Origin: Crocinitomicaceae bacterium
GTDB lineage: Bacteria; Bacteroidota; Bacteroidia; Flavobacteriales_D; Sanyastnellaceae
Direction: 5' to 3'
Assembly (NCBI GenBank): GCA_002700285.1
Contig: PACT01000046.1
Location: 13,515-50,286, forward strand
Length of the DNA stretch: 36,772 nt
Position numbers and translations under genes: made by a program
Shown: positions 4,622-32,762 of the stretch, piece by piece
Layout: every line of letters begins with the position of its first letter
Numbering within the stretch: position 1 is the first letter of the stretch
The notes under the pieces: model-generated
The model's database searches: none
What the model saw: only the letters and a program-made list of their open reading frames with translations
What the model was told of the DNA's origin: nothing

Positions 4622-5312
4622 TCCCGTTGAAGCGGGTGGGTCAGTACGACAGCAGAGACCTCGGGTATCAGCAACACATTGCTGTGCTTGGTAGCTGCAA
4701 GGTGGGCAACTTCGTTGCGACACTCCCCCTGTTGCGCTTGGTGCGCCGGCGCTATCCAAACGCACAGATTGATTTTGGGGCACAGAAGCCACACGCGATT
4801 TTGAAATCGCCTTGTGCGGCAAAAAGCAGCCGGTCAATTGGCGCATCTCATGGGACCGACCAAAAGACAAAACCAATCCCATGGGACGACTGGAAACAAT
4901 CACGGCATCAGAAGCACAAAGAAAATGTGATGCAAGTGCCCTTGATTTGGTGATTAATTTCGACGGGTTAAATCCGTTAGCGCAAACGCTGTACAGAGGG
5001 TTAGAACCTCATTGGGTTGCGGGAGCGAGTTTGAGGGCAGATGAGCAGTTGTTACTAACATGGGGTATCGCAACAGTTGTAAAACAAACCTTGGCTGTAG
5101 TCGATTACGATACCAACTGCGTAGGGGCCAGTCCAATCCGAGTTTGGCAATCACAGAGCCCTGTTGTTCAACGAGACATCATTACTGCAAGCTGCAAACT
5201 TTGCAGTGACAACCGACTTCATTACAATGGCTGCATAGCAGTAAAACACTATTACATTATATGCGATAGAGCCAATCAAGTAATAAATTGGCTTGGGAGA
5301 AAATTGGGATGA
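4618..5312 (+). pseudogene. GT9 (heptosyltransferase-like) pseudogene: frameshifted and truncated
   Basis: The reading frame from the ATG at 4618 gives IAVLGSCKVGNFVATLPLLR, the N-terminal glycine-loop motif of GT9 ADP-heptose:LPS heptosyltransferases. At 4771-4780 (GATTTTGGGG) the frame breaks. Restoring one T gives DFWGTEATRDFEIALCGKKQ, a continuous family-like sequence that carries on in the +1 frame through LETITASEAQRKCDASALDL and NPLAQTL to about 5060. After that the sequence no longer resembles the family. The next gene starts at 5309, so the C-terminal half of a normal roughly 350-400 residue enzyme is missing. A single-base sequencing error could explain the shift but not the missing half. 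The pieces could in principle be translated as a 111-residue stub. Confidence 0.75.
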
Positions 5313-6830: not shown

Positions 6831-6902
6831 AGCGGATGAAGAGATTCGAACTCTCGACCCTCTCCTTGGCAAGGAGATGCTCTACCACTGAGCTACATCC
6901 GC
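6831..6902 (-). tRNA. tRNA-Gly (anticodon GCC)
   Basis: The minus strand gives a complete 72-base cloverleaf. The acceptor stem GCGGATG pairs with CATCCGC and has a U discriminator. The D arm is AGCTCAGTGGTAGAGC, the anticodon stem is CTCCT/AGGAG around the loop TTGCCAA with anticodon GCC, and the T arm is GAGAGTTCGAATCTC. CCA is not encoded, which is common in cyanobacteria. The 3' end faces the left glycosyltransferase operon. tRNA genes are frequent island-integration sites, and this one sits at the junction between two blocks of different base composition. Confidence 0.97.
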
Positions 6903-7582: not shown

Positions 7583-8656
7583 TCACAGCCAAGACAAAAG
7601 TGGATCAGCCAAAGAAGAATTTAACATCTTGCCTGTAATGAAGCCAATTGTTCCATCAGCACTTGACTCGTAGACTCGGGACATATGCTTAACAACCTGG
7701 ACACTAGATACAGGATTTTTCCCTATTGCAGCTTCAGCTGCAAGTACGATGCCTGAAGAGCCTGAGACAAAAAGATTAAAAAGGTCAGAAATCTCAGCTC
7801 GAGAAGGCAAATCACTGGTCATCATAGAATCTAATATGTTAGTGGCGACATAACATGGTGTACTTAAATTTTGGCATACCTCAAGAATCGCTTTGGTAGC
7901 TAAAGGTATTCTTGAAATAGAAATCTCTCTAGAAAGGTCTCCACGATCGATTAAGATACCGTCGACTGATGATGCTATGTCACGTAAATTCAACAAACCC
8001 ATTCTTGATTCAATTTTGGCAATAATACGAGGCCTTAACTGTTCATCTAAGCAACAAGAATCGAGCAGAGCATTTAGTCGTTGTATGTCACGCCGAGAAG
8101 ATGCAAACGACAAATAGATTGATTTAAGACCAGAAGCGGCAAATTTACCAATAGCATATTCATCAAACTCCGTAAGATAACTAAGATGAATAGTTTTTTC
8201 CTGAATATCAACAGCCCTGTTAAGTACAATATTGCCAGATTTCAGGACCTTAGCCCGTGCCAAACAATTTGATACGTCAACATTCAAAATAGAGACGACT
8301 ACTCCACCAAAATCAATTTTAAGCGTATCACCTACTTCAATCTGAGTAAAAAATTCTGAATGGTTGATACCAATACCTGGAGAGTCATAATCGGATGCAA
8401 CAGAGAAAATATTCAGCTCAGAACCTTCTTCTAGAAAATTGGTACCAATAATTTTTTCGATTCTAAGTTGCGCACCTTGCGTATCCAAGGAAAATGGGAC
8501 AGATGCACCTTTAAGGACATCAAGGTAACTTGTAAGCGATTCAGGACTTGAATGAGAAAGATTAATTCTAAAATCTGTTGCACCTGCATAAAACATCTGC
8601 GTTAAAGTCTCTACATCGAGAGAAGAGGGACCAACTGTTGTAACAATTTCATGCAT
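7583..8656 (-). CDS. Pyruvate-kinase-like protein lacking the C domain (357 aa)
   Basis: The A domain of pyruvate kinase is recognisable: TTVGPSS at residues 6-12, FRINLSH (Arg, Asn, Ser, His of the nucleotide and K+ site), LDTQGAQLRI (usual LDTKGPEIRT; the Lys is Gln), IIAKIES (catalytic Lys and metal Glu kept), LIDRGDLS (metal Asp kept), VATNILDSMM (Thr kept) and SRAEISDLFN. A B-domain-like insert lies between about residues 70 and 160. The protein stops after the A domain, so the roughly 120-residue allosteric C domain is absent. It is AT-rich and divergent from the neighbouring operon. A housekeeping pyruvate kinase is unlikely in this setting. I infer a specialised PEP, pyruvate or phospho-transfer enzyme for glycan building; the reaction is unknown. 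Confidence 0.75.
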   Translation of the reverse strand: MHEIVTTVGPSSLDVETLTQMFYAGATDFRINLSHSSPESLTSYLDVLKGASVPFSLDTQGAQLRIEKIIGTNFLEEGSELNIFSVASDYDSPGIGINHSEFFTQIEVGDTLKIDFGGVVVSILNVDVSNCLARAKVLKSGNIVLNRAVDIQEKTIHLSYLTEFDEYAIGKFAASGLKSIYLSFASSRRDIQRLNALLDSCCLDEQLRPRIIAKIESRMGLLNLRDIASSVDGILIDRGDLSREISISRIPLATKAILEVCQNLSTPCYVATNILDSMMTSDLPSRAEISDLFNLFVSGSSGIVLAAEAAIGKNPVSSVQVVKHMSRVYESSADGTIGFITGKMLNSSLADPLLSWL

Positions 8657-8812
8657 AAAATAGATCTACGACTGATGCAAACACTATAACATAGCATCGA
8701 TGATGGCAGCAAGATAGCAGTTTTTTTTCAGAAATAAAAGACAATCCGCATCATGCAGAATATCAAATAGACAGTAAATATATATTATAATAAGCACTGG
8801 AAGAAAACTAAA

Positions 8813-8841
8813 TATATTAGCCGCGTAAGGGCTGTTACAAT
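8813..8841 (+). promoter_or_regulatory. Possible promoter of the AT-rich plus-strand operon
   Basis: TACAAT at 8836-8841 is a fair -10, with TATATT 17 bases upstream as a poor -35. It lies in the 200-base divergent gap between the pyruvate-kinase-like gene and the operon, directly before GAGGAAAG. Since several AT-rich hexamers occur in this gap, the position is uncertain. Confidence 0.25.
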
Positions 8842-8864
8842 AGAGGAAAGAAAGGGTGCACAGG

Positions 8865-10796
8865 ATGCAATCACTCAACAAAATTGTTGAAGAGCAGTGG
8901 AAAGCTGAACTTACAAATCTATTAAAAACAATCTCTGACTATAATCTGAATAGAAGACTAGTCGATAATTCTAATTTTGAATACTGGCAAAAACCGCCTT
9001 TAGAGTCAGTAAGATCGTTATTAAATCATCAATTTTTCTCAATTGACACGAGAGAATGGGATGGAAGATCGGCAAGAATGGCACATCTTGGTGAGTATGA
9101 AGTTCGCTGCATAAGTGCGGATCCCTACACACTTATATCAGTACCCGACGAGGAAAATATATATCTGAGACTCCATCCTCAGGAATATACTCATAAAGGT
9201 GACGAGCGAATTCCAAGCCGCGACTTTTTACTGAGTTCATATCCTTGGGGCAATATTTTCATGGCTAGTAGTCTTGTAGAGAATTCAGAAACCTGGGCAC
9301 AAATCATCCGTGATTCGATTGAACATGAAAAAAATTACAAATCCCGAAGTTCATTAGAAACAAATTTAGATGTCGATGTGGCTTACTTTGGATTAGAGAA
9401 AGATACTTCTGCAGGCTTTCGTGAAGTAATAAGCTATCCTGAATTTAAAAAATTAGTGGCCGACAAGTCAAGACTTAGTAGTGCAATTAACGAAAGGGGC
9501 TTTAGTGGCTTTGCGTATAAACTTATATCAAAGCATCAAGGGACATCACACAATTTATTGATCAAGAGGTCGCACCCAAGAAACTTTATTGTATTCATCG
9601 ACAGTCTAGATCTAACTATTTTAGATGACACGAGTTACCAAAAGGGCTTAAAAGCACTTCCTGACATTGTAAACAATAGCATCATATATAAAAACTTTAC
9701 TGCATCCGGAGATTGGACTTATCCATGCTTATTTTCAATGCATACTGGTACACTCCCGCAATTCAATTTTAGCAACTTTCGACACGACCCGACTTTTAGA
9801 TTTCTAGAAAGAGATCAGATAAATTCGATGAATCATAATATGGCTACATATTACATTACACGATCGCTCATTCTTCCTGGGTCAAAACTGAAAAATAAAG
9901 ACTTTCTAACTCGTAAGATCGCCGAAAAGGGATTTAAACAAGCCGGAATTAAGTCATCACGAAATCATGGTTGGAGGTGTGGGTTGACCCATTCTCTAGA
10001 ACTTTCCTTTGAGAACTGCTCAATCGCAGAAATACCAAAACATCTGAGCCATCTTACAAAGACCGGTACAGAAGGAAATATTGATACCTTCTTTATTGAT
10101 ATAGATTGCTTACATCGCAATGACATGTTTACAAGAGCACGGGGTCAGCACTGGAATGTTGATCACACTGAATGGATCCAAGATTCTCCTGATAAATATG
10201 AAAGACTCCTTGGAATCTATCAAGATGCAGATGTTGAGCAAAGGCGCTACAAAGATAAACTTATAACAGCTGATAAGATACTTTCTTCTATTTTAGAGGA
10301 AGCAAATCCGGAAGACAATATTTTGATCTTCTCCGATCACGGAACTCAGTATTTACCTTGGACTCTTGAATCACCATATCCGAGAGATATGGACTCTACG
10401 CTTTCACCTGAAAGGATATGGAAACCTACGCTATTAGTCTATGCGCCAACTAATCCATCTTTTAATGGTCATCAGCACTCAGAAGAATTAGTAAGCACAT
10501 CTGATCTCTACAGTATAATACTTTCACTGCATGGTATAGCAGTTGAAAACAATAATAACCAATCAATATTACCAAAGTCGTTAGGTGGTAAAGTAGGAAG
10601 GGAGATGGCTACAACGTTCGGACTTACAGTTGAAGCCAATGAAGAACATCCTGAACTCTCTTTACCAAATCGCTTCGAGCTAGTTGTAAGAAGAGCCAAA
10701 AATATGGGAGAAATACATCAATGCCCTGCACTGCCACTTATTGAAAGCAATTCATTGGAGGAATTGAACCATAAGATGTTCCCTGCGCTATATTAA
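8865..10796 (+). CDS. Alkaline-phosphatase/sulfatase-superfamily protein, Thr nucleophile (643 aa)
   Basis: The C-terminal two thirds is an alkaline-phosphatase-superfamily fold. NFIVFIDSLD near residue 246 gives the first metal Asp. WTYPCLFSMHTG (Thr near 285) aligns with the sulfatase CxPSR...TG region but has Thr where sulfatases have the formylglycine Cys. IFSDHG (Asp-His near 491) is the second metal pair. A Thr nucleophile is typical of phosphotransferases such as EptA or LtaS rather than sulfatases. The first roughly 240 residues match nothing I know. There is no signal peptide or membrane helix, unlike EptA and LtaS, so it is probably cytoplasmic. The ATG at 8865 has AAAGGG upstream; an in-frame GTG at 8856 is the alternative. 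I infer a phospho-substituent transferase or hydrolase. Confidence 0.75.
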   Translation: MQSLNKIVEEQWKAELTNLLKTISDYNLNRRLVDNSNFEYWQKPPLESVRSLLNHQFFSIDTREWDGRSARMAHLGEYEVRCISADPYTLISVPDEENIYLRLHPQEYTHKGDERIPSRDFLLSSYPWGNIFMASSLVENSETWAQIIRDSIEHEKNYKSRSSLETNLDVDVAYFGLEKDTSAGFREVISYPEFKKLVADKSRLSSAINERGFSGFAYKLISKHQGTSHNLLIKRSHPRNFIVFIDSLDLTILDDTSYQKGLKALPDIVNNSIIYKNFTASGDWTYPCLFSMHTGTLPQFNFSNFRHDPTFRFLERDQINSMNHNMATYYITRSLILPGSKLKNKDFLTRKIAEKGFKQAGIKSSRNHGWRCGLTHSLELSFENCSIAEIPKHLSHLTKTGTEGNIDTFFIDIDCLHRNDMFTRARGQHWNVDHTEWIQDSPDKYERLLGIYQDADVEQRRYKDKLITADKILSSILEEANPEDNILIFSDHGTQYLPWTLESPYPRDMDSTLSPERIWKPTLLVYAPTNPSFNGHQHSEELVSTSDLYSIILSLHGIAVENNNNQSILPKSLGGKVGREMATTFGLTVEANEEHPELSLPNRFELVVRRAKNMGEIHQCPALPLIESNSLEELNHKMFPALY

Positions 10797-10805
10797 TAAG
10801 TGATC

Positions 10806-11759
10806 ATGGAAGCTCTAGCGTTGAACTCAACTACCAAATCAGCATCAACATATGCTATTTGCGACTTTCATTACAACACTAATATTGTAGGTTTTTATGC
10901 ATCTAACCAACAATATTCTAATGCTATAGCAACCGATTTTAAATCAGTAGTGAAACGCTGCATGCGCACACTGCCACCCGATGACCAAAGTATACAGCTT
11001 GAGCACTATGGAACAACCAGATATCAAGTGAATCAAGCCACAAATAAAAAGTACTTTGATGAATTGCTTCATCTACGCGATCGGATATCAATACCTGTTG
11101 AAGCCAATTCAATTAATGTTGAGCTTAGTAAGGAAGAATTAGTGTTGGCTTGGAATCTTCTTGAATCGATACCTAATTTATTCGACACCGTAAAGCGTCA
11201 CCTAGGCGGAGAATTTTTAGTCATGGAAGCCTACCATTTTGTAGCTTCTAATTACAATAAACAGTCAAAGGTAAGCACGAGTGGTTTTTGGCATCGTGAT
11301 TCAATAGGCCGAAGGATTAAGATCTTCATATGTCTGCAAACAACAGGTCATTCCCCTGTTACTGCTGTATTACCTTGCACCTACCTTGACCCTATCCCCC
11401 GAGGTTGGGAAATGTTACGTGCAGCTATATCTTCAACGGCAAATAGCAATGTCACAACTGAACCAATGAATAATTTAAATTCGACATTTGAAAAATTTAA
11501 TCAAGTCGATCAAAGTTACACTCAAGGCGATATTGTGCTCCTTGATACCAATGCAATACATAGAGGCATTTACTCTGATTATAATAATCAGAAGGATTCA
11601 TACCGTCATCTTCTGCAGATTAGCCTGATACCTAAAACAACCTTGGATCTGCAAAGAATGCTCAACAGCGTTTGTTGGGCACAAAAAGATGTCAAATATC
11701 CGGTTGACTTATTTGATAAAATTCCACTTCATACTCCACCATTTTATAAAGACAAATAA
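10806..11759 (+). CDS. Phytanoyl-CoA-dioxygenase-like Fe(II)/2-oxoglutarate oxygenase
   Basis: The protein has the facial-triad pattern of the PhyH family: HRD within SGFWHRDSIGRRIKIFICL (about residues 160-178), a second His in LDTNAIHRGIY (about 253-263), and an Arg in SYRHLLQIS that would bind 2-oxoglutarate. Its length of 317 residues is normal. The start is taken as the ATG at 10806; a GTG two codons earlier is possible and neither has a clear Shine-Dalgarno. The gene starts 9 bases after the preceding stop, and its stop shares one base with the next ATG, so it is in the middle of an operon. I infer hydroxylation or another oxidation of a sugar or lipid-linked precursor; the substrate is not known. 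Confidence 0.7.
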   Translation: MEALALNSTTKSASTYAICDFHYNTNIVGFYASNQQYSNAIATDFKSVVKRCMRTLPPDDQSIQLEHYGTTRYQVNQATNKKYFDELLHLRDRISIPVEANSINVELSKEELVLAWNLLESIPNLFDTVKRHLGGEFLVMEAYHFVASNYNKQSKVSTSGFWHRDSIGRRIKIFICLQTTGHSPVTAVLPCTYLDPIPRGWEMLRAAISSTANSNVTTEPMNNLNSTFEKFNQVDQSYTQGDIVLLDTNAIHRGIYSDYNNQKDSYRHLLQISLIPKTTLDLQRMLNSVCWAQKDVKYPVDLFDKIPLHTPPFYKDK

Positions 11760-12460
11760 TGTATACATCACAAAGTCTTGGGAGCTTTATTCAACAGCGC
11801 TACATATCCTTTGGGCCTTCATGCCTTTCAGCTGAAATATTAAAGGCATGCAATCTTAGGTTTTGCACATTTGGATTTGACTGGTTTCGAAGCGGAAGTT
11901 TTCATCACTCATTATTCTTCAAGCTCGATTTAAAAGACTTTCTAAAGTTCCACGTTAATAATTTATCTGCTCCTTTGCGTCAGAGGAGCAATCCAGAACA
12001 ACAAGATAATAAAACCTCAGAGGTTGAAGGGCTTAAGCAAGTTTATGGATATAATGTATTATACAACCCTCACAAAAATTATAATAAATACTCATTCGAC
12101 TATTACGAGAGGTCCTTTCGCCGATTAACACTCAGACTAGACAGCAATTCACCGGAATTCATATCACCAATATTCTTGATGGCAGACTATCTAAACAAAG
12201 CCCATTATGTTCACTTCAACAATACAGGAGAAGCAGCAGCATATCTCAGCTACAATTGTTTATTAAAATATAACTATACGCCTTCCATAAAGATAATTAG
12301 ATTCAAATTAGTAGAAGATGAGGATTTGTGCAGCTTACCTCTATCTTTTAAAAAAAGTGAGCATCACACCGAATATATAGTTCCATTGTCGTATAAGATT
12401 GACGCCAGTACAGAAATGAGAAGACTATTTTACAAAAGTCTTTTTGAAATTTTTGCATAA
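11759..12460 (+). CDS. DUF1796-like (papain-like Cys peptidase annotated) protein
   Basis: The N-terminus reads YISFGPSCLSAEILKACNLR, then TFGFDWFRSGS, then YNPHKNY near the middle. This matches the pattern of DUF1796 proteins: a small-residue loop ending in Cys, a PFDW-like motif, and a later conserved His. The family is annotated in databases as putative papain-like cysteine peptidase, but to my knowledge its activity is not established, and members often lie beside glycosyltransferases. The length is 233 residues, with no signal peptide. The ATG shares one base with the preceding stop (TAATG). Family assignment is from motif memory, so moderate confidence. Confidence 0.6.
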   Translation: MYTSQSLGSFIQQRYISFGPSCLSAEILKACNLRFCTFGFDWFRSGSFHHSLFFKLDLKDFLKFHVNNLSAPLRQRSNPEQQDNKTSEVEGLKQVYGYNVLYNPHKNYNKYSFDYYERSFRRLTLRLDSNSPEFISPIFLMADYLNKAHYVHFNNTGEAAAYLSYNCLLKYNYTPSIKIIRFKLVEDEDLCSLPLSFKKSEHHTEYIVPLSYKIDASTEMRRLFYKSLFEIFA

Positions 12461-12462
12461 TC

Positions 12463-13179
12463 ATGATGAAGGCATACATACCACATTACACACCTTTAGC
12501 AGAGCGTCATAAATCAATAATAGCAACCTGCAATGATCTAAAATTAGATCCTCAGATTATTAGTGCTTATGACAAAGAAAGCCTTCTTTCACATCCAAAA
12601 TGGTCAGAGGAAAACCAGAGAGAATGGAATAATAGAGTCCAACGTATAATTCCTATACTACTTGCTAATGCAAATTCATTATCGTCAAATTCGCAGATCC
12701 CACAATGGGCTACTTACAGAATCCTCAAAAGCTCAGAAATAAGCCTTACATATAAGCATTTTTTGTGCCTGCTACAAATTGCTTCCAACAGAGAACCAGG
12801 TCTTGTATTTGAGGATGACATTCTAACTAAACCTACAAGCAAATTAAATCTCACACGAGCCCTTGATCTACTCGGATCTGAAGCTGATTATATTGATCTA
12901 GGAGGCGGTTGTGAACTGCCGCCATACGCTTCAGATGCCGCGTTAGAAACAGGTGGAATATTTATAAAGACAAACCCACCAAGAAGCAGGACAACAGCCG
13001 CTTACGCAATAACTCCAGAAGCTGCGCTAAAAGTCGCAAGTAGTTTGTTCCCATGTATTTTCCCACTTGATTGGTCATTTCAATATATCTTTCTCGAGAA
13101 GGGTTTGAGGGTTCTTTGGACTCAGCCATCATGCCTGCTTCATGGCTCACAAAACTCGATGCCATCATCTATCCAATAA
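12463..13179 (+). CDS. GT25-like glycosyltransferase (LPS biosynthesis type)
   Basis: The order of motifs matches GT25: an N-terminal strand (MKAYIPHYTPLAERHK), SLTYKHFLCLLQIA (usual S-x-x-x-S-H-x-x-x-W), LVFEDDILTK (the EDD metal-binding motif), then TTAAYAITPEAALKV and PLDWSFQYIF, which correspond to the conserved Y-x-I-s-x-x-A-A and P-x-D segments. It is 238 residues, close to the family norm. Two consecutive ATGs (12463, 12466) are possible starts. GT25 enzymes transfer galactose or glucose in lipooligosaccharide synthesis; the sugar used here is unknown. It begins 2 bases after the DUF1796-like gene. Confidence 0.8.
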   Translation: MMKAYIPHYTPLAERHKSIIATCNDLKLDPQIISAYDKESLLSHPKWSEENQREWNNRVQRIIPILLANANSLSSNSQIPQWATYRILKSSEISLTYKHFLCLLQIASNREPGLVFEDDILTKPTSKLNLTRALDLLGSEADYIDLGGGCELPPYASDAALETGGIFIKTNPPRSRTTAAYAITPEAALKVASSLFPCIFPLDWSFQYIFLEKGLRVLWTQPSCLLHGSQNSMPSSIQ

Positions 13180-13186
13180 TATTAGT

Positions 13187-14407
13187 ATGGGCCTTGCTAA
13201 TTTGCTATCAATACCATTTATTTATTCAAGCAATAATATATCTATCACAGACAGCAATCGATTATATTTTGTTCGTTACTCATGGTCACCTTCAGACGAA
13301 CGAATTTTTTATCTTGACAAGAATCTTAAACCAATAGAGGCCAATTTAGACGTTAAATTATTCCCAGGGCTAAAGGAGTTCTTGCATACTTGTTTAGACT
13401 GTAGAGACGAAATAATTGCATCAATAGATGAAAACGTTATCCAAAATCTACTAACGCTGGACGAAACTCGCGGACCACAAAGCTTTGCATTTGGTCATTA
13501 CGCTGTAGATATATTGCCAATACTATACTACCTTCAGTTATTTCAAAAATCTATAATTAAGTCGCTGCCACCTCTTTTGATCTATGATATTTGCAAATGG
13601 CATGAAGATTTACATAGTATATTTGGTATTCCCTTGGCAAGCGTATTTCCATTAAATTCATATAGAAGCCTTCTTGATGTTAAAATCAGCGGTGGCAAGC
13701 AAATTCTTTTATATGCGGCAAACATAAAAGTTATTTCTTATAATAACACTCTAATCCGTACTTCTTTTTCTAACAATCTGATTCTCATAAATCAAAAAGA
13801 ATATTCTGCACCAAAAACGGATGTTCTGTTCTTGCTTCGCAAACAACTCGGTGGTCGGCCAGTTCGATGGACTAATCAGCAAATGTACGAATCGCTGCTA
13901 AATAGAAATACTGAAATCAGCAGCGCTATTGTAGATCCGGCACGGTTGATGCCCTCAGAACTCGTATCATATGCCAAACAGACCTCAATAGTTGTTACGC
14001 CTCCCGGCTCTTCTGCTTACATACCACTTCATATCTCGAGGCCCAATGTATTCGTTGTTATGCCAGTAAGCTTTAAGTGTAATCATGCAAACACATGGGA
14101 CTATACCCTTAAGATGTTTACTCATTACTCACATAAATTAATCCTTGTTTGCAATTCGGACAACGCAATATCGCCCTCATCAGCCGCCTGGGACACACCT
14201 TTTAACATCGAACACAATCATCTGATGAACTTAGTCGAAAAAATAATCTCAATCACAAAGTCTAAAGATTTCTCGTTTCCAACAGATCGAAAGTACAAAC
14301 AAGAATATTCAGCTCTTGATTTACGTTGTGAGCTACATTTTGAATCACTTAGTGTATCTATGCCTGCTTCATTTAAAAACACGATCTCAGCATTAGCATC
14401 CTCATGA
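13187..14407 (+). CDS. GT61-family glycosyltransferase (DUF563-like)
   Basis: Family signatures are FAFGHYAVDILPILYYL (usual NFGHWLxDxLP) about residues 100-116, the central segment DVLFLLRKQLGGRPVRWTNQ (usual RRxxxRrixNE), MPSELVSYAKQTSIVVTPPG (usual SFxEQvxLFxxAxvivgxHG), and an envelope of Rossmann-like strands. The start is set at the ATG at 13187 rather than the in-frame ATG at 13142, which lies inside the previous gene; no Shine-Dalgarno distinguishes them. GT61 enzymes transfer xylose or GlcNAc in eukaryotes and act in LPS and capsule loci of bacteria. The stop overlaps the next start (ATGA). Confidence 0.75.
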   Translation: MGLANLLSIPFIYSSNNISITDSNRLYFVRYSWSPSDERIFYLDKNLKPIEANLDVKLFPGLKEFLHTCLDCRDEIIASIDENVIQNLLTLDETRGPQSFAFGHYAVDILPILYYLQLFQKSIIKSLPPLLIYDICKWHEDLHSIFGIPLASVFPLNSYRSLLDVKISGGKQILLYAANIKVISYNNTLIRTSFSNNLILINQKEYSAPKTDVLFLLRKQLGGRPVRWTNQQMYESLLNRNTEISSAIVDPARLMPSELVSYAKQTSIVVTPPGSSAYIPLHISRPNVFVVMPVSFKCNHANTWDYTLKMFTHYSHKLILVCNSDNAISPSSAAWDTPFNIEHNHLMNLVEKIISITKSKDFSFPTDRKYKQEYSALDLRCELHFESLSVSMPASFKNTISALASS

Positions 14408-15645
14408 ATTCACAACTACAGTTAAACCGAATAGACTACGGAATAAAGCATAAATATGCAACTCAATTCCTTAACCATCACAAAACTTCCAATTATACTC
14501 GACGGACATATCTATCGCACATAAGAACATGGAACTCCTTTATCGAAGACCAGAAAAGAAACAAACATGATTTTACTGCTCAATTTGAATCTATAATTAA
14601 AAAAATAAATCAAAATGGTTACGATCTCTTCCCCCCCATACAAATATCATCTAGCCATAATCTTGTAAATGGCATTCATAGACTTGTGGCATGTGACATA
14701 ACAAGTACTGAGCCAAGTATTGAATATGTTGATTCTCCATACATATACGATTCAAACTTCTTCTCATCATACCAAAATCCTCACGACGGCTCACGTTTTT
14801 CCACGCAGTTGAGGGATCAACTCATCTCAACTTATATTGATTCCTCCTCACTTAATGCACTCATTGTATTGCCTAAAGCAATTGCAAGTGACGGAGGAAA
14901 TTTTGTTAAGAACATGATAGCTAATGACAAGAAAATAAGTTTTGTTCGGCGGTTTAAAGTCCCACTTAACTTACTAGACCTTGTTGTTGCACATTTTTAC
15001 TACGATCAGCAGTGGTGCAACAAGGGAAATCAAATCAATTGGGAAGCACTTTCATTTAAAACCAGAGAAATTACATCAGTCGATACAATACAGTATTTAG
15101 ATTTTTATACGACTACCTATTCACCAGAAGAGTTAGTTAATATTAAAAAAGAAATAAGGTCACACTATGGCATAGCTAATAGTTCAGTCCACAGCACTGA
15201 CCACCCAAAGGATGCCAGAGTCGTAGGTCAGTTCCTAATGTCAACAGGAATGATACGTTCATTATGGACAACTGAGCGGTGTAGCAAAAGCCGGGTTGTT
15301 AGTCAATACTTGATAAAAGAACTGACGAAACCCTCTTACAAATGGAACCCCGATCGAATGCTCGTAGGAAGCGCATTAAATGATATTGCAGGACTAAGAA
15401 ATGCCAATGATCTTGACTTCATATCACGAGAAGTCTGCAATAATGCAAACAATACTGCATCACACAATGAATATGAGTATCTATATTCGCGATCACTTTT
15501 TGATTTATTAGATGAACCCTCCTGTTATTTCACTTTATTCGGTTGCAAGGTAATCTCGACAAAAGAATATCAATACTTTAAACGACAGCGTAACGAAGAA
15601 AAAGATTCAATAGACCTACATGCCTTATCTCTAATAGGTGGTTAA
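14404..15645 (+). CDS. ParB/sulfiredoxin-like plus nucleotidyltransferase-like protein (413 aa)
   Basis: Near residues 79-97 PIQISSSHNLVNGIHRLVAC resembles the ParB/sulfiredoxin fold loop (usual DGxHRL). Near residues 317-342 PDRMLVGSALNDIAGLRN, followed by ANDLDFI, resembles the GS...D-x-D active-site strand pair of nucleotidyltransferase-fold proteins. HSTDHPKDARVVGQFLMSTG in between looks like a helix-rich linker. The two assignments together suggest a two-domain protein that binds or modifies a nucleotide or phospho-sugar, not a DNA-partition protein. The start overlaps the GT61 stop by 4 bases, and the stop is 2 bases before GT10, so it belongs to the operon. Both domain calls are from motif recognition only. 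Confidence 0.5.
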   Translation: MNSQLQLNRIDYGIKHKYATQFLNHHKTSNYTRRTYLSHIRTWNSFIEDQKRNKHDFTAQFESIIKKINQNGYDLFPPIQISSSHNLVNGIHRLVACDITSTEPSIEYVDSPYIYDSNFFSSYQNPHDGSRFSTQLRDQLISTYIDSSSLNALIVLPKAIASDGGNFVKNMIANDKKISFVRRFKVPLNLLDLVVAHFYYDQQWCNKGNQINWEALSFKTREITSVDTIQYLDFYTTTYSPEELVNIKKEIRSHYGIANSSVHSTDHPKDARVVGQFLMSTGMIRSLWTTERCSKSRVVSQYLIKELTKPSYKWNPDRMLVGSALNDIAGLRNANDLDFISREVCNNANNTASHNEYEYLYSRSLFDLLDEPSCYFTLFGCKVISTKEYQYFKRQRNEEKDSIDLHALSLIGG

Positions 15646-15647
15646 CT

Positions 15648-16529
15648 ATGATTCCAGTAATTTTTATTCCTGGCTGGCCGGATGAGACAATAAGCGCGTA
15701 TACAAAAAGATTGGCATTACAAACTCCAGGAAATTCAGCCAGATGGAGAAAAATATATGCAACTTCCGACCCAAGCGAAGCACGTTATGCTATTTGTCAG
15801 GACAATCCAATCTCAATACGTCTTGCAAGACAACATGGCTTTAGGAAGTCGCAAATAATTTATATTAAAAGAGAAGCTGATTCAGCACTACCTCCTATTG
15901 ATCAGGATTCAGTACTGCTGACTTATCAAGGCTCTGATAAGTTAATTCCTGCAGTATGGTGGCTATCAATTCCGTTCGATGAACTCAGTAAACTAAGCTA
16001 TCCAGAAAAGCACAATACTTGTTCCGCCATTGTGAGCTCATGTTCCAATTTACCTGGACATCGTAGGCGCTTAACTTTTATCAATGCTCTAGCAAAGTAT
16101 TCTGAGATTGATATCGATATCTTTGGTAGAGGACACAGACCCGGATCTTTTTACAACAGGTATCGAGGTGAATTAGTTGATACCGGGCGCTGTAAGAGAA
16201 ATGGCTTGCTAAAGTACAATTACTCAATATGCATAGAAAATACTCAAGAAAACGGATACATAACAGAAAAATTTAATGATGCCGTATTATGCTTTGCATT
16301 ACCTATTTATCACGGCGCACCAAATATAAACTCGTACTATCCTCAAGAATCCTATATTAATCTGCCTGACATAACAAGTGGTTTTAACATAGACAAGGTG
16401 CTTGACTTAACTCAAGAAGTACCAAATTCTGAAGAGCTGGCAGCATTAAGAAATGCAAGAGAACTATTGCTTTATAAGTATAATATTTGGAATATTGTTA
16501 ATGCACTTGTCCTAGATGCACACACTTAA
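15648..16529 (+). CDS. GT10-family (alpha-1,3-fucosyltransferase-like) glycosyltransferase
   Basis: The C-terminal half shows the GT10 signature: LKYNYSICIENTQENGYITE, then KFNDAVLCFALPIYHGAPNI, corresponding to the family's YKFxixFENS-x-x-x-YvTEKi-x-dal-x-ag-x-vPiv-x-G block that binds GDP-fucose. Length is 293 residues. Other GT10 members use other donors, so fucose is likely but not proven. It is the last gene of the plus-strand AT-rich operon, and its stop is 5 bases from the end of the convergent methyltransferase gene. Confidence 0.85.
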   Translation: MIPVIFIPGWPDETISAYTKRLALQTPGNSARWRKIYATSDPSEARYAICQDNPISIRLARQHGFRKSQIIYIKREADSALPPIDQDSVLLTYQGSDKLIPAVWWLSIPFDELSKLSYPEKHNTCSAIVSSCSNLPGHRRRLTFINALAKYSEIDIDIFGRGHRPGSFYNRYRGELVDTGRCKRNGLLKYNYSICIENTQENGYITEKFNDAVLCFALPIYHGAPNINSYYPQESYINLPDITSGFNIDKVLDLTQEVPNSEELAALRNARELLLYKYNIWNIVNALVLDAHT

Positions 16530-20189: not shown

Positions 20190-21239
20190 TCAGATTAAGG
20201 ATTCCAATGCGAGAGGCTCGCCTTTGCTAAAAGGCTTTTTAGCTATTTTACCAATCAAAAGATTATACATACTTGGTGGTGATCCATACCCAGGGCGAAC
20301 AATACGGAGATTATGAGCAGTAAAAGCCTCGCCAGCTTTTATATTTTCAGCTACATATATAGATCGTCTAAATACAAGACTTCTCATCTCAGCCTCTGTT
20401 GGACCGTATTTGACTTCTCCAAGTGACATCCATGCTTGAGAACTTTCCGTAACAAGACTTTTGAGCTCATGCGGCTCCAGTGAAAAAGCACTGTCTACAC
20501 CACCATCTGCTCTTGATAATGTGAAATGCTTTTCAATAACACTAGCTCCTAAAGCTACTGCAGCTATAGCAGCACCTACACCCATCGTGTGATCAGACAA
20601 ACCCACCTCACAATTGAATAACTTCCGTAGATGAGGAATCGTCCTGATATTGGTATTTGCCGGTGTAGCTGGATAAGTACTGGTGCATTTAAGCAAAATC
20701 AAATCAGAGCAGCCAGCATCTCTAGCAGTTGTAACTGCCTGCTCGAGTTCGCCAAGACTTGCCATACCTGTGGAGATGATGAGTGGCTTTCTAGTTGCAG
20801 CGGCCTTCTCAATTAAAGGCAAATGATTATTCTCAAAGCTTGCAATTTTATAAGCTGGAACGTCTAGATCCTCCAAAAAATCAACAGCTGATTCATCAAA
20901 GGGAGAACTAAAACAAAGCATGTCATGATCCCTAGCCCGCTGCATAATCGGCTCATGCCATTCCCACGGGGTGTAAGCCTGCTTATAGAGATCGTGCAAA
21001 TTCTTTCCTGACCACAATGACTCAGCATCATTGACCTGAAAACTTCCTCCACGAACGTTTAAAGTAATCGTATCTGCTGTGTAGGTCTGTAATTTAAGAG
21101 CATGAGCACCTGAAGCAGCAGCTGCATCAACAATCGCAAGAGCACGATCAAGACTCTGGTTATGGTTGCCGCTCATCTCGGCGATCACCAGTGGAGGATG
21201 GTCAAGACCGATTAAACGATCCGCTAAAGAGATAGTCAT
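20190..21239 (-). CDS. pseI: Pseudaminic/nonulosonic acid synthase PseI (NeuB family)
   Basis: This enzyme condenses the 6-deoxy-2,4-diacetamido sugar with PEP to make a nine-carbon acid. The (beta/alpha)8 barrel carries PLVIAEMSGNHNQSLDRALA (N-terminal, NeuB hallmark), ALKLQTYTADTITL, PLIISTGMASLGELEQAV, GLSDHTMGVGAAIAAVALGA and EKHFTLSRADGGVDSAFSLE. Metal and PEP residues appear to be in place. The last 60 residues (FRRSIYVAENIKAGE and onwards) are the SAF antifreeze-like domain that closes the active site in this family. The length of 349 residues is normal. PseI is preferred over NeuB because pseB, pseC and pseG-type genes are in the same region; a legionaminic-acid synthase cannot be excluded. 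Confidence 0.92.
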   Translation of the reverse strand: MTISLADRLIGLDHPPLVIAEMSGNHNQSLDRALAIVDAAAASGAHALKLQTYTADTITLNVRGGSFQVNDAESLWSGKNLHDLYKQAYTPWEWHEPIMQRARDHDMLCFSSPFDESAVDFLEDLDVPAYKIASFENNHLPLIEKAAATRKPLIISTGMASLGELEQAVTTARDAGCSDLILLKCTSTYPATPANTNIRTIPHLRKLFNCEVGLSDHTMGVGAAIAAVALGASVIEKHFTLSRADGGVDSAFSLEPHELKSLVTESSQAWMSLGEVKYGPTEAEMRSLVFRRSIYVAENIKAGEAFTAHNLRIVRPGYGSPPSMYNLLIGKIAKKPFSKGEPLALESLI

Positions 21240-21603
21240 TGGCTAATGAAAAGTGTAAAAAGGAAAAGTGGAACTGCCCTTCGATTACCGGGAATTGAAT
21301 GAATTAATCATGACAGTCTCTATAATGGTTGTCATCCCTCAGACCACACAAAGAAATCATTATGACAACTTCATAGAAGGGTCACTACCAAGTCAAACAC
21401 AAGATAAATCGAAATCCACCTAAAATGCACGAAGAGAATCAATTCCTAATTAAAAATTTAAGCAATAATAAATTACACAAAAAGTTCTTACATTTAATCA
21501 CTTAAGTACTTATTAGCTGTAAAAACACCTTAATTTAGAGATCGCTAAATTCGCCAGCGAAACAAGATTTCGTAAATATTAGTTATAAGCTTGCCGATAT
21601 TGT
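21240..21603. other. Intergenic spacer between pseI and the pseG fusion
   Basis: About 360 AT-rich bases without an ORF. It holds a cluster of short palindromic arms around 21310-21369 and would have to contain the pseI promoter. No clear -35/-10 pair for the minus strand and no terminator for the upstream fusion gene is visible. Confidence 0.6.
21328..21369. repeat. 8-bp inverted repeat upstream of pseI, with a third partial arm
   Basis: GTTGTCAT at 21328-21335 and ATGACAAC at 21362-21369 are perfect inverted repeats 26 bases apart. A third arm, ATGACA, lies at 21310-21315, forming a second inverted pair with TGTCAT at 21330-21335. The cluster is 70-130 bases before the pseI start, a plausible operator position. 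It may also be chance in AT-rich DNA. Confidence 0.3.
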
Positions 21604-23814
21604 TCACTGTGCAGACACCTTGATTACAAAACGCTTGCCGTACCGATAGAAGAAAGCTGGATAAGACTGATTGTCCACAATCCGTAGAAGATTAAACTGC
21701 TCGGCCAGAGAAAGCTCGGGATCCAACTGCGAATCCACGCTACGGCGACGACCGTAATGACTCCTTTCTCCATGCTGGGATCGGGCTAAGGCCGTCACCT
21801 CCTTATATCTGTCAAACCATTCCAGGCAGAGTTGCAGAGTGGCCCTTTCCTGCAAGGCACGCCACTCATCAACAAGCTCATGCCCTGACAGAACTATTTG
21901 TTGTTGCAGATAAATCTTGCCGGCATCAAGCTCAGCGGTGGCCTCAAAGAGAGTAATGGGGATACTGCTCACACCATCAAGAATCTGCCAAGTCATCGGA
22001 CTCCAACCCTGACCTTGCGGCAAAGCACTTGCGTGCACGACAAGATTATGCCGATGAAGGGCCAGTTGTTCGGCACTAAGCAGTCGACCGCAACTTAATA
22101 GCAGACATACGTCGCCTGGTCGCAACTGAGAAGGGTCATGAATCCAACGCACAAAATGACCTCGCTGCCAAAGAGCCAAAATCATCTCAGGTAGATAGGT
22201 ATTCAGCCAACTGCCGCAGTCACTGAGAATAGTGATGTAACTCGGAACTAAAAACAGAGATTCACAATCCGTCGCCATCGAAGCAGTAAATTGTTCACTG
22301 AAGAGAACACGAGCAAAACAAGCGAAGCTCTTGTTGATCTCTTCCGATCCGCCCGATACCGGACCCCAACACTGTTCCATCTCTTTAAGACCAAGACGGA
22401 TCATCTGATTAATTAAGCCATGATCACCTGCACACTTATCAAGAAGTAGAGCAGTCCGAGCTATTTGCCTGTCTGTTTCCAACCCGAATGGCTGCCGGTC
22501 AAAACAAATTAAGCCTATTGGGCAACCATGATTAGTAGTTACAGTCAAGAAAAGCTTGTTACTATCTGTAAGAGCATCACTAAACCAGTCATTACTCCCT
22601 GACACACCAATCAGCTCAGACAATAAGCTATCAATTCCTAACTGTTGATCACTAGCCCAGTGCAGCAAAAGTGCTTTATCACTTGGCTCGGCCGGTCGCA
22701 AACTGATGCTGGGTTGAGGGCCCAGCATTTTTAAGGCCAAACGTGAAGCACCAAAACCGTCAGTGAGATCAAAATGATTGGCATGCGATATAAACTCATC
22801 TACCCGAGACAACAGTGCTGAGCGAATCTGAGCAACAGTGACAGTTGCAGATTCGCCCAGCAAATGGAGATGACCTTCATTAGCAAGAGCATTGACAAAT
22901 GGCACTTGATTGGCAGCAATAGCTACTACAAGACTCGGCAATCTCAAGCAAATTCGTTCCCAAGTAGTGGAGCCCCCAGCGCCAATAGCCAGATCAGCCC
23001 GTGAAATCAATGCCGCCAAGCTCGGCAGCGGAGCATGCAAATTAGTAAATTTTCTCTGGGCTACCAAGTTCTCCACCATCTGCCGATGAGGTGACTGGCG
23101 CCCAAGAACTACATCCACCGCAAGATGGTCGAAAGCTGGATCCATCAGTGCCTCTAGAGCACGACAAGTCAAATTGTCTTGATCTACCCCTCCAAAAAAC
23201 ACAAGCACGCGTTGTAATTCCGTGCGCTCTGGCACCAACGAGCGAAGTTGAGCATATTCTGACCCCATAAGGGCGTAATGAGGTCCGAGTAGCTGCTGGC
23301 AATGGCTCGGCAATAGCCCTCGATAGCGTTGATCAGTGGCGGCACTGAAAAAATTCTGATCCAACAGCAAATCGGCTTGATGGGATCTGTCAGCCAAGTC
23401 ATCAATCACCAACAACCTGGAGGGGGCTTGACCTTCGAGAGCCTTCAATACCTGAGATTCCCAGATGGCATCAAGGCCGTAATGATCGACCACCAACCAG
23501 TCAATACTGTTTAAACCAGCTCTTGCTAGGGCGGCTAGGCAGTCTTCGGCATCTTGCTTCTGGCTGCAACCGAGCCAAGCAGCGTATATCTCGCGGCCAA
23601 CTAAACGATCGCAAACAGCAAGAGGCTGATCAGGTAATGGCAATACCCGAAACTCCTTCTCGAGTAGAGCAATCAAATCCCCATGCTGACTACGACACAA
23701 AAACACAACTTCAGCACCATAACTCTGCAACTCTCGGGCCAATATGCGACAACGAATCACATGGCCGCTGCCGATCGACAGAGAAGCATCGCATCGAAAA
23801 ACAATACGGGGCAT
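21604..23814 (-). CDS. Three-domain fusion: PseG hydrolase, GNAT acetyltransferase, formyltransferase (736 aa)
   Basis: Residues 1-345 are PseG, the UDP-2,4-diacetamido-trideoxy-altropyranose hydrolase. It begins with FRCDASLSIGSGHVIRCRIL (catalytic His in GSGHVxR), then LLVIDDLADRSHQADLLLDQ and AIGAGGSTTWERICLRLPSL. Residues about 370-520 are a GNAT-like acetyltransferase (SLRPAEPSDKALLLHWASDQ and GCPIGLICFDRQP), the position-4 acetylation step done elsewhere by PseH. Residues about 525-736 are a formyltransferase-type domain, with NLVVHASALPQGQGWSPMTW and ITLFEATAELDAGKIYLQQQ. All three lie in one uninterrupted frame. GGGAG precedes the ATG. The C-terminal domain's acceptor is unknown. Spacers of more than 300 bases on both sides suggest its own transcript. 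Confidence 0.88.
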   Translation of the reverse strand: MPRIVFRCDASLSIGSGHVIRCRILARELQSYGAEVVFLCRSQHGDLIALLEKEFRVLPLPDQPLAVCDRLVGREIYAAWLGCSQKQDAEDCLAALARAGLNSIDWLVVDHYGLDAIWESQVLKALEGQAPSRLLVIDDLADRSHQADLLLDQNFFSAATDQRYRGLLPSHCQQLLGPHYALMGSEYAQLRSLVPERTELQRVLVFFGGVDQDNLTCRALEALMDPAFDHLAVDVVLGRQSPHRQMVENLVAQRKFTNLHAPLPSLAALISRADLAIGAGGSTTWERICLRLPSLVVAIAANQVPFVNALANEGHLHLLGESATVTVAQIRSALLSRVDEFISHANHFDLTDGFGASRLALKMLGPQPSISLRPAEPSDKALLLHWASDQQLGIDSLLSELIGVSGSNDWFSDALTDSNKLFLTVTTNHGCPIGLICFDRQPFGLETDRQIARTALLLDKCAGDHGLINQMIRLGLKEMEQCWGPVSGGSEEINKSFACFARVLFSEQFTASMATDCESLFLVPSYITILSDCGSWLNTYLPEMILALWQRGHFVRWIHDPSQLRPGDVCLLLSCGRLLSAEQLALHRHNLVVHASALPQGQGWSPMTWQILDGVSSIPITLFEATAELDAGKIYLQQQIVLSGHELVDEWRALQERATLQLCLEWFDRYKEVTALARSQHGERSHYGRRRSVDSQLDPELSLAEQFNLLRIVDNQSYPAFFYRYGKRFVIKVSAQ

Positions 23815-24138
23815 ATCAGCTCCCTCACTGAGAGAAACACTTCTGTCGCATCATTACCCATCTGAGATCTACACCAACGATCCCAAAACTAAATACATTC
23901 TTTAAACAAGAATAAACCCACGAGCAGATTTGGCTGGCGCAAGAGAAAAAGCCTGGCCATTTGAGCTGCCACTGAAACGATATATCAATAAACGCATTAC
24001 AATACCAAGTTTGAGCCGGATCCGATAACGGAGCCCCCTCGCCATGAGCCATCACAAAGGGGATGAATATGTCTGCTCAATGCTAAGTCATAGAGCGATG
24101 CTGAAACCACATCTCAAACATTGATGCACGAAATGAAT
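23815..24138. other. Intergenic spacer upstream of the PseG fusion
   Basis: About 320 bases without a supported gene. A 76-codon minus-strand frame (24055-23825) has no motif, and I treat it as chance. The sequence just before the fusion gene holds the GGGAG ribosome-binding site and a short near-palindrome, CTCAGTGAG. I see no strong terminator after the SpsF fusion. Confidence 0.5.
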
Positions 24139-26229: not shown

Positions 26230-26239
26230 AGCCCCTTTT

Positions 26240-27262
26240 TTATGACTCTTGTCTTGATGTGTAGTCTCGAGTAACCAAGCCATCAGGCTTATAAAAAACT
26301 CGGGAGAGCAATGCTTTTTGGAGAACTGAGTCTGGTGTATAAAATCTATCTCCAGACTTTATTCGCAGATCATTTGCATCAGCGCTCAGACTATCGCGCT
26401 TTAGCAACATAATTCCGCCATTGCAAGAAATTAGAAAGCTTTCGGGGTCTGCATGAAGTATGAGGCCATATGTAAAGGGATGCATGTAACACTCTCGCTC
26501 TATGGCTAAATCTATAATGCGTACTTTTTGACCCTTGATAAAGGTAAATGATCCTGAATAGGGCTTCGAAAAAGCGAGCACAAAGCTCTCAAGATCTTGC
26601 ATTGAGAGAGACCAATTAATACAGCCATGCAGATCAGATGAGATGCGAGGAAAATAAGAATCTGGCCCATCCTGTGGAATTAGACTAGATGCTGATTGAT
26701 CTAATGTAATCTGACCAGAAATAACTTGCTTAATCCACGGAGTCAGATGTTCAAACTCTTCCTTAAGCTGACGCTTTTGAAGGTCGCACGGCATACGCTC
26801 TTCGTCTGAAAATATAAAATCTTTTCGAAATGCATATGCACCTTCATCTATTTTTGTTGTGACATAGTGCATTAAGATCGATCCCCTTTTATCTCGCTGG
26901 AGGATTCTCCAGCTAAAACCCCCACCGCCTTTGAATTCGGGCAACGGTGCACCATGTGAATTGATTAACTGTCCACGAAAATCGTCAATATCTTTTTGCG
27001 TGAATATGAATGGTGATCCAAAAGAAATGCCAAGACTTTGGCGGTGTCGGACTCCAATCTCTTGAAAAGAAGCATCGGACAGGCTCTGTACGCATAACTT
27101 TTTGACAGACGCCGAAAGATTTAAGGACTCAATCGAATCTTGTTGGCGAGGGCCAAAAACAACATTGCACTCTACGCTTGCAGCGTCTAAAAAATCAGTA
27201 ATTTGTAAAAAGTGTGGACTAAAGCCAAAAAGGCAGACAACATCGAAGCTATCTCTCGTCAT
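26240..27262 (-). CDS. Sugar N-formyltransferase-like protein (340 aa)
   Basis: The protein resembles methionyl-tRNA-formyltransferase-fold enzymes. The catalytic Asn-x-His is in QLINSHGAPLPEFKGGGGFS, and the catalytic-Asp region is MHYVTTKIDEGAYAF. A beta-rich C-terminal domain follows around residues 203-265 (SSDLHGCINWSLSMQDLESF and PYSGSFTFIKGQKVRIIDL). Sugar formyltransferases use N10-formyl-tetrahydrofolate to formylate an amino sugar, and that role fits the amino-sugar genes on both sides. It starts inside the stop of the small upstream ORF (ATGA, 27262-27259) and ends 10 bases before the SpsF fusion, so it belongs to the hisH-to-spsF operon. Base composition is AT-rich relative to that fusion. 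Confidence 0.82.
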   Translation of the reverse strand: MTRDSFDVVCLFGFSPHFLQITDFLDAASVECNVVFGPRQQDSIESLNLSASVKKLCVQSLSDASFQEIGVRHRQSLGISFGSPFIFTQKDIDDFRGQLINSHGAPLPEFKGGGGFSWRILQRDKRGSILMHYVTTKIDEGAYAFRKDFIFSDEERMPCDLQKRQLKEEFEHLTPWIKQVISGQITLDQSASSLIPQDGPDSYFPRISSDLHGCINWSLSMQDLESFVLAFSKPYSGSFTFIKGQKVRIIDLAIERECYMHPFTYGLILHADPESFLISCNGGIMLLKRDSLSADANDLRIKSGDRFYTPDSVLQKALLSRVFYKPDGLVTRDYTSRQES

Positions 27263-27465
27263 GTGTCAATCCTGTTAGGAAGACCCGCGTTGCGGATGTG
27301 AGAGCGGAACTTCATTAGATTCTGATCGCTTTGGTAGAAAAAGGTGAAGGAAGCTAAACCTACCTCATAACCCCCAACAAAGTGCTGTGCTAATCCACAG
27401 CAGTCTAGAACGATCACCGGAACCACCCTGACTAATGGCATCTTACCTTCACTAAATTTTTTCAT
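27259..27465 (-). CDS. Small ORF in the amidotransferase operon (68 aa)
   Basis: A 68-codon frame starts at 27465, overlapping the end of the WbuX-like gene; MPLVRVV at 27441 is an alternative start. It ends in an ATGA overlap with the formyltransferase gene. That tight coupling on both sides argues that it is translated. The segment RVVPVIVLDCCGLAQHF vaguely resembles the N-terminal strand-loop of HisF (usual RIIPxLDxxxGxxVK), so it could be a leftover of a second hisF-type gene, but the similarity is short. No other function is visible. Confidence 0.45.
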   Translation of the reverse strand: MKKFSEGKMPLVRVVPVIVLDCCGLAQHFVGGYEVGLASFTFFYQSDQNLMKFRSHIRNAGLPNRIDT

Positions 27466-29923: not shown

Positions 29924-29944
29924 AACTTAAGCCAAATTTTAGTA

Positions 29945-29973
29945 CCTATAGCATGATTCGCCAAGTACTTCAA
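29945..29973 (-). promoter_or_regulatory. Probable promoter of the hisH-hisF-wbuX operon
   Basis: On the minus strand TTGAAG (29973-29968) and TATAGG (29950-29945) are separated by exactly 17 bases. The -10 is 22 bases before the HisH-like ATG, leaving a leader of about 15 bases. Confidence 0.4.
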
Positions 29974-29982
29974 GGAGCTTTC

Positions 29983-30108: not shown

Positions 30109-30224
30109 CCTTTGCCGTTAAATTAGTTTGTCAAGTCAATGTCGTGAAGTGAAAAGTTGTAATCAACTCCAAATTTATAATCTGCTTAATTAATCTATTT
30201 AGCTAATTATTTTTCGTTTTCATA

Positions 30225-31572: not shown

Positions 31573-31574
31573 GA

Positions 31575-32744: not shown

Positions 32745-32762
32745 AGAGCAAGAGACGCAGAT

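Follow-up and report, generated by a model that had tools for sequence, protein, structure and literature searches.

Modules that form 3'-phosphoadenosine 5'-phosphosulfate (PAPS) pair ATP sulfurylase with adenosine 5'-phosphosulfate (APS) kinase, and PAPS synthases such as PAPSS1 are described as fusions of these two enzymes (PMC9885120). The same source describes PAPS synthesis in vitro, in which ADP accumulates and PAPS is nearly absent unless pyruvate kinase (PK) and phosphoenolpyruvate (PEP) are present. Synechan (xss-type) gene clusters of cyanobacteria bring glycosyltransferases (GTs) and sulfotransferases together, and the paper on synechan states that, among bacteria, sulfated polysaccharides are exclusive to cyanobacteria (PMC8205485). 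We analysed a stretch of 36,772 nucleotides that we assign to marine Synechococcus (hereafter the window; GenBank assembly GCA_002700285.1, contig PACT01000046.1, positions 13,515 to 50,286). It carries a short PK-like gene and, divergent from it across a gap of 199 bases, a gene for a protein resembling the alkaline phosphatase (AP)/sulfatase superfamily. We estimate at about 50% the probability that these two genes form one variant of a recurrent module of two genes for sulfate activation and glycan sulfation, with the remaining six genes of the adjoining operon lying outside the module. Loci inspected for comparison carry L numbers and genomes G numbers.

7583 to 8656, minus strand: short PK-like gene, 357 amino acids, barrel and lid domains only, signature ILIDRGDLSR (PF00224, E = 9.5e-53)
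8856 to 10796, plus strand: AP/sulfatase-superfamily protein, first gene of the operon (PF00884, E = 0.0012; 18.6 bits, below the cut-off of 25 bits)

The PK-like protein shares with pyruvate kinase (PF00224, TIGR01064) the barrel and lid domains, the catalytic Lys, Glu, Asp and Thr residues and the Arg, Asn and Ser positions. It differs in lacking the C-terminal domain and in scoring 214.2 bits against a TIGR01064 cut-off of 306.4 bits, with a match that ends at residues 319-333 of 357. Since the contig belongs to Synechococcus and the source assembly to Bacteroidota (see below), searches around that assembly sampled the wrong phylum, and the genome searches were re-centred on Synechococcus WH7803. 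A sample of 350 genomes from the family to which this strain belongs gave a match at E ≤ 1e-30 in 317; ten of the 350 hold a short frame of 354-383 amino acids, 34-48% identical to the window protein (E ≤ 2.1e-52). All other matches listed were frames of at least 485 amino acids with E values of 2.6e-40 or worse, the best being a full-length PK. Profile searches of 214 genomes of the phylum, among the matches listed, and of 34 genomes of one genus added no short copy to these ten, the Bacteroidota genome searches showed no short PK-like gene except that of the window, and a separate scan of genome contigs with the PK-like protein was empty.

All members carry the signature [LIV][LIVM][IV]DRGDL[ST]R, as against ARGDLG in canonical PKs. 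A tree was computed from 67 rows, comprising 14 members (11 picocyanobacterial copies, the two fusions and the phage copy described below) and 53 canonical PKs in the same alignment. The 14 members, on long branches, were separated from the rest of the tree by a split supported at 100/100, and the order of the phage and fusion copies within the subfamily was weakly supported. Ten catalytic or ligand positions, given in rabbit PK numbering, were kept in all 14 members (R72, N74, S76, D112, R119, K269, E271, D295, T327, E363). Compared with the 53 canonical PKs, P116 is replaced by A, K117 by Q (in DxxGxx), A292 by D (in xRGDL), Q328 by N (in ATQ) and G297 by S or T in 14 of 14, and S361 by A (in LSxE) in 13 of 14. 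Rabbit PK has E where the subfamily has Q in DxxGxx. There is no room for a C-terminal domain in the 11 picocyanobacterial copies or the phage copy. This residue pattern fits an enzyme that is possibly active but has changed its preference for substrate or ion.

A clue to a function came from outside the cyanobacteria. The PK-like protein matched 162 plasmid records, three of which were inspected, and its best plasmid match was a protein of Ensifer adhaerens; a signature scan of 174 loci likewise led to this protein, which belongs to the same subfamily by signature and by tree. The features of interest in Ensifer, and a phage copy, are the following.

L024, 9953 to 12765: E. adhaerens PK-ATP-sulfurylase fusion and APS kinase; the fusion has 736 amino acids (PK, E = 1.7e-67; PUA_2, 1.4e-38; ATP sulfurylase, 6.4e-64)
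L176, 8478 to 9443: Ensifer sulfotransferase, about 17 kb from the fusion
L158, 10001 to 10978: phage PK-like member, 36% identity, within phage genes of contig IMGVR_UViG_3300027779_001649, which is T4-like by eye

In the Ensifer protein, the PK-like part forms the N-terminal half and ATP sulfurylase the C-terminal half. The gene that follows encodes an APS kinase (7.5e-33), and a gene of the Wzy type is located upstream. Sinorhizobium chiapasense, like Ensifer a soil bacterium, has a fusion 93% identical to that of Ensifer, with an APS kinase homologue close by; among 174 matching plasmid records, these two were the only ones in which at least 80% of the fusion was covered at one place. The arrangement thus resembles PAPS-forming modules in joining ATP sulfurylase to an APS kinase, but, unlike in PAPS synthases, the domain added to the sulfurylase is a PK homologue and not the APS kinase. 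A small search relates the Ensifer sulfotransferase to the one next to a picocyanobacterial PK-like gene (L149; 1.6e-7), and its relatives also include solved protein-tyrosine sulfotransferases (3.2e-6). The genes around it read by eye like exopolysaccharide export and assembly genes. We consider the Ensifer cluster a candidate for a sulfated exopolysaccharide cluster outside the cyanobacteria. The literature search, by title and abstract and with most subscription journals outside its coverage, returned no report of a PK-ATP-sulfurylase fusion or of the PK-like family.

The phage protein matches 22 phage records (27.5-41.3% identity). A P-loop kinase is encoded three genes upstream of it and a CTP_transf_like gene nearby. 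We considered the P-loop kinase as an APS kinase and rejected this, as no profile, PDB or phmmer match pointed to that identity.

A further line of evidence is the identity of the adjoining genes. For the ten other picocyanobacterial copies, the surrounding 14-20 kb were inspected, the view being one-sided in L150, L154 and L155, where the gene is near the contig start. In ten of the 11 loci, window included, the adjoining gene encodes either a protein of the AP/sulfatase superfamily (five) or a sulfotransferase (five).

AP-superfamily partners, 571-646 amino acids: window (Pfam, 0.0012), L151 (DUF229, 0.00094), L154 (homologue of the L151 protein), L155 (Sulfatase, 1.6e-7), L157 (2.1e-4)
Sulfotransferase partners: L148 (2.1e-25), L149 (3.8e-11), L152 (3.5e-7), L153 (3.5e-4), L156 (1.1e-9)

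DUF229 is a family of the AP clan. The gaps between the PK-like gene and its partner range from -14 to 297 bases, and both picocyanobacterial subgroups of the tree contain partners of either type.

Nine of the 22 neighbours (frames of at least 150 amino acids, 21 of them scanned) matched AP/sulfatase or sulfotransferase families at E ≤ 0.01, four of these nine Pfam matches being below the curated cut-off (window, L151, L153, L157). The background consisted of the 133 other complete frames of the same loci, leaving out frames below 150 amino acids and six frames cut by the ends of the stretches; one neighbour (L148, 7218-7700) and one background frame (window, 4812-5312) were not scanned individually. 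No such family was among the 25 commonest in the background, so that none occurs in more than 4 of the 133, and none occurred more than 3 times among 75 unassigned proteins, a scan that left out thirteen of the 133 clustering with assigned proteins. None of 44 background proteins scanned singly matched these families. Fisher's test gave p values of 8e-7, 1e-5, 5e-4 and 4e-3 for 3, 6, 12 and 18 such genes assumed among the 133, for an association noticed before it was tested and against a background that was bounded, with the union of the families uncounted.

By sequence, what recurs is thus a PK-like gene beside a group-transfer enzyme, and not a block of eight genes. The initial annotation had treated the PK-like gene and the seven plus-strand genes as a candidate system that makes and attaches a phospho- or oxidised substituent to a glycan, and had named a failure of the families to co-occur beyond close relatives as one point that would refute it. 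The outcome went against the block, as phmmer (E ≤ 1e-4) matched none of the seven operon proteins within the 14-20 kb inspected around the ten other PK-like genes. Its suggestion of an unusual substituent fared better: the pairing with AP-superfamily proteins recurs, and the gene associations suggest that a charged substituent is made for a glycan or attached to it, but a sulfo group supplied by the PAPS pathway appears more likely than a phospho or oxidised one, because of the ATP-sulfurylase fusion, the adjacent APS kinase and the sulfotransferase neighbours.

These same three observations lead us to propose sulfate activation for glycan sulfation as the role of the module, to which the PK-like subfamily would most likely be dedicated. 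The module would consist of a PK-derived small-molecule phosphotransferase and an enzyme that attaches a charged group to a glycan. The PK-like enzyme would use PEP to drive the supply of PAPS; in the simplest case it would regenerate ATP from the ADP that APS kinase releases, as is done in vitro for PAPS synthesis (PMC9885120). The transfer step would fall to the sulfotransferase or, in the window and four other loci, to the AP/sulfatase-fold protein, the two kinds of partner having equivalent jobs. The other six operon genes, half of them for GTs and half for accessory enzymes, would serve to make the particular glycan of the strain. The family membership, the conserved catalytic residues, the adjacency and the fusion to ATP sulfurylase are directly seen; from them we infer that the enzyme is catalytically active with PEP as its donor, that the coupling step takes place, that the product is sulfated and that the two kinds of partner are equivalent.

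Several observations weigh against this proposal. Unlike in PAPS-forming modules, homologues of the two Ensifer enzymes, ATP sulfurylase and APS kinase, are missing from the window, and none was found in the other picocyanobacterial stretches (11 with the window) or in the phage stretch, in a search that did find the S. chiapasense control. No confirmed sulfation gene lies near the phage copy, and in S. chiapasense a homologue of the Ensifer sulfotransferase was absent from the 29 kb inspected downstream. In L150, the neighbour is a protein of 460 amino acids without a profile match, so that this locus has no profile-supported partner. The sub-threshold Pfam matches and the testing of an association already noticed also count here, as does the fact that 5 of the 11 partners, that of the window included, are AP-superfamily proteins. 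The window protein has Thr at the nucleophile place, as expected of phosphotransferases rather than of enzymes acting on sulfate esters. Finally, plain ATP regeneration would not require the substitutions that are fixed close to the active site, namely A to D, K to Q, Q to N and S to A, and the substrate may therefore differ. Because of these changes, the natural reaction is possibly less ordinary than ATP regeneration.

Two motifs of the AP-like protein of the window were read by eye: DWTYPC, in which Thr occupies the nucleophile position, and SDHGTQ, which contains the DHG of the metal site. Similar motifs were seen by eye in the partner proteins of L151 and L154. In sulfatases, the nucleophile position is taken by Cys or Ser. 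Thr-nucleophile AP-like enzymes include phosphoethanolamine and phosphoglycerol transferases, and phospho-group transferases of the EptA, LtaS and OpgB types are among the closest known systems. The window protein resembles them in its AP fold signature with a Thr nucleophile, as judged by eye; unlike them, it has no PDB relative by sequence and no transmembrane domain seen by eye. AlphaFold without an alignment gave an unusable model (pLDDT 31). No match to the protein was found in the 16 genomes behind the ribH loci described below, among plasmids or in the viral-contig scan. Synechan-type clusters resemble several of the PK-like loci in combining GTs with sulfotransferases, but the window itself gave no sulfotransferase match among its scanned proteins, and the words 'pyruvate' and 'PAPS' are absent from the main text of the synechan paper (PMC8205485).

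We considered the possibility that the module transfers a phospho rather than a sulfo group. The PK-like enzyme would then phosphorylate a small hydroxy-acid or similar compound, and the AP-like protein, or a sulfotransferase-fold enzyme using a 3'-phospho-nucleotide donor, would move the phospho-group to the glycan. We doubt this explanation but regard it as a serious rival, because the partner in the window is an AP-like protein. The Thr read by eye at the nucleophile place in the window, L151 and L154 speaks for it, as do LicD matches in two genes of L155 (one just under the cut-off), an APH/choline-kinase-like gene in L150 and the shifted active-site residues of the PK-like family. Yet ATP sulfurylase is the only fusion partner observed, with APS kinase encoded by the next gene, and five partners are sulfotransferases. 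It is also conceivable, though unlikely, that the PK-like gene is one of many unlinked island genes and owes its neighbours to islands in which sulfotransferases and AP-fold proteins abound. Sulfotransferases are indeed common in cyanobacterial polysaccharide clusters, according to the synechan paper (PMC8205485), and most partner proteins are mutually dissimilar at the clustering threshold used. Fisher's test, even with a generous assumed background, argues against such a chance grouping, as does the independent fusion to ATP sulfurylase with an adjacent APS kinase in another phylum.

That the eight genes act jointly, as initially annotated, appears very unlikely. The plus-strand genes do form a tight operon, composition is AT-rich throughout, and distant homologues of some members occur together elsewhere: a ParB/nucleotidyltransferase (NTase)-like gene with a GT10 gene within 20 kb in G729, GT25 with GT10 in L060, and a GT61-family gene beside the PK-like gene in L149. 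Against these partial overlaps stands the lack of any match to the seven operon proteins in the ten other PK-like stretches. We can give hardly any credence to the remaining explanation, an ordinary extra pyruvate kinase of glycolysis. Its catalytic residues are kept, but the lack of room for a C-terminal domain in 12 of the copies (11 picocyanobacterial, one phage), the fixed substitutions and the separate branch speak against a glycolytic role, and so does the location of the window copy in a glycan island. Moreover, genomes G502, G536 and G551 have a full-length PK besides the short gene.

Our preferred reading of a sulfate-activation module can be taken a step further, tentatively. A PK subfamily may have left glycolysis to become a dedicated PEP-linked enzyme of sulfate activation for surface glycans, coupled to ATP sulfurylase and, in rhizobia, fused to it. 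Through the changes at its active site, it would act on a nucleotide of the sulfur pathway or drive the energetically unfavourable sulfurylase step, with sulfotransferases and AP-fold proteins as interchangeable partners. APS resembles ADP in shape.

The six operon genes that we place outside the module follow the AP-like gene on the plus strand.

10800 to 11759, plus strand: putative Fe(II)/2-oxoglutarate (PhyH-type) oxygenase (NCBIfam, 0.036; H-x-D...H motif by eye)
11759 to 12460, plus strand: DUF1796-like protein (PF08795, E = 0.0077, below cut-off)
12463 to 13179, plus strand: GT25 glycosyltransferase (PF01755, 9.5e-8, above the curated cut-off)
13142 to 14407, plus strand: GT61-like glycosyltransferase (PF04577, 8.4e-6; 26.5 bits against a cut-off of 27 bits)
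14404 to 15645, plus strand: protein without family assignment, ParB-like N-terminal half and NTase-like C-terminal half by eye
15648 to 16529, plus strand: GT10 (fucosyltransferase-type) glycosyltransferase (PF00852, 3.6e-13, above the curated cut-off)

The six junctions between 8856 and 16529 measure +3, -1, +2, -38, -4 and +2 bases; the overlap of 38 bases rests on the first ATG of the GT61 gene and would be abolished by a later ATG at 13187. The GC content of the eight-gene block is 0.375-0.386, as against 0.51 to its left. The coordinates, strands and divergent, tightly spaced, AT-rich architecture initially described for the locus are thus correct. The family assignments held in part: profile matches support PK and GT10 strongly and GT25 clearly, GT61 is a borderline case, and Sulfatase and DUF1796 fall below cut-off. 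For the protein called PhyH there was no Pfam match at E ≤ 0.1 and no PDB match at E 1, and for the protein called ParB/NTase no relevant match in Pfam, NCBIfam or PDB. AlphaFold without an alignment gave a pLDDT of 34 for the latter, again an unusable model, and neither phage records nor the viral-contig scan contained a match to it. Its only trace was a weak match in one of 300 genomes of the family (26% identity; G729, L160:8737-10164), with a GT10-like gene 4.3 kb away; in the window, GT10 follows the ParB/NTase-like gene. GT25- and GT10-like genes lie side by side in a ribH flank of Synechococcus MU1642 (L060), and L148 has a 2-oxoglutarate-Fe(II) oxygenase of another family two genes from its PK-like gene. 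Because the operon proteins are unmatched in the other PK-like stretches and the overlaps are only partial, or hold only at the level of Pfam families, the eight genes are not a conserved unit, but pieces of the operon may travel together.

The assignment of the window to Synechococcus rests on a comparison with the rest of its assembly. The window corresponds to positions 13515-50286 of contig C14, and the partial 16S of the assembly is Bacteroidota-like, its best whole-query plasmid-borne matches being Aureibacter and Persicobacter at 85-86%. The two end stretches of C14 have GC contents of 0.525 and 0.566, as against 0.43-0.45 in seven stretches from other contigs, and its tetranucleotide correlation with other contigs is 0.62-0.76, as against 0.72-0.92 among these. 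At its right end, C14 shows the order ribH, psbZ and a mutS-like gene (the last two recognised by eye), and the ribH product is 93% identical to that of a Synechococcus metagenome-assembled genome (MAG) and 90% to that of WH7803. Because ribH, psbZ, GC content and tetranucleotide profile all disagree with the rest of the assembly, we identify the window as marine Synechococcus DNA misbinned in a Bacteroidota MAG. MAGs labelled Blastopirellula (L053) and Bifidobacterium breve (L064) also carry contigs with a picocyanobacterial ribH (89% and 85% identity), apparently as contaminants.

6831 to 6902, minus strand: tRNA-Gly(gcc), left edge of the AT-rich island
20190 to 33782: nonulosonic-acid-type genes, namely NeuB, a cytidylyltransferase/class-III aminotransferase fusion of 714 amino acids, Polysacc_synt_2, DegT, a HisF/GATase pair and two formyltransferase-like genes
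36046 to 36525, minus strand: ribH, right edge of the island

A tRNA-Gly(gcc) is found downstream of ribH in 10 of 14 scanned ribH loci of relatives, within the fetched stretches. The distance from the ribH match to the tRNA is 72-82 bases in five of them (L049, L050, L051, L052, L055) and 1.2-9.2 kb in the other five (L056, L065, L061, L066, L054), as compared with 29.1 kb in the window, where the segment is AT-rich over about 7-21 kb. Strain WH7803 has a GT25-like gene at this site. As both spacing and gene content differ among relatives, the site reads as a variable hotspot, with glycan genes in the window and the GT25-like gene in WH7803. The segment at 20190-33782 probably encodes a nonulosonic-acid pathway. 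Between this segment and ribH, two short minus-strand frames (34745-35303) resemble by eye a frameshifted remnant of the C-terminus of uvrB, and the first of them matches frames of about 690 amino acids near ribH in relatives; they may be an assembly artefact or an insertion scar.

Sulfate activation is an uphill process, which known cells pull with APS kinase, a pyrophosphatase or a GTPase. If the proposed role is true, a PEP-linked enzyme in this pathway would meet the cost of the uphill step in a new way. The laboratory practice of supplying PEP and pyruvate kinase to PAPS synthesis (PMC9885120) may then have a natural counterpart in the form of a fused enzyme. The Ensifer cluster, if its product is sulfated, would be an exception to the statement in the synechan paper that such polysaccharides are limited to cyanobacteria (PMC8205485). 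The PK-like gene would also provide a genetic marker by which sulfated surface glycans could be recognised in Synechococcus, Prochlorococcus and rhizobia. In Synechococcus and Prochlorococcus, the chemistry of the coat bears on resistance to phages and grazers.

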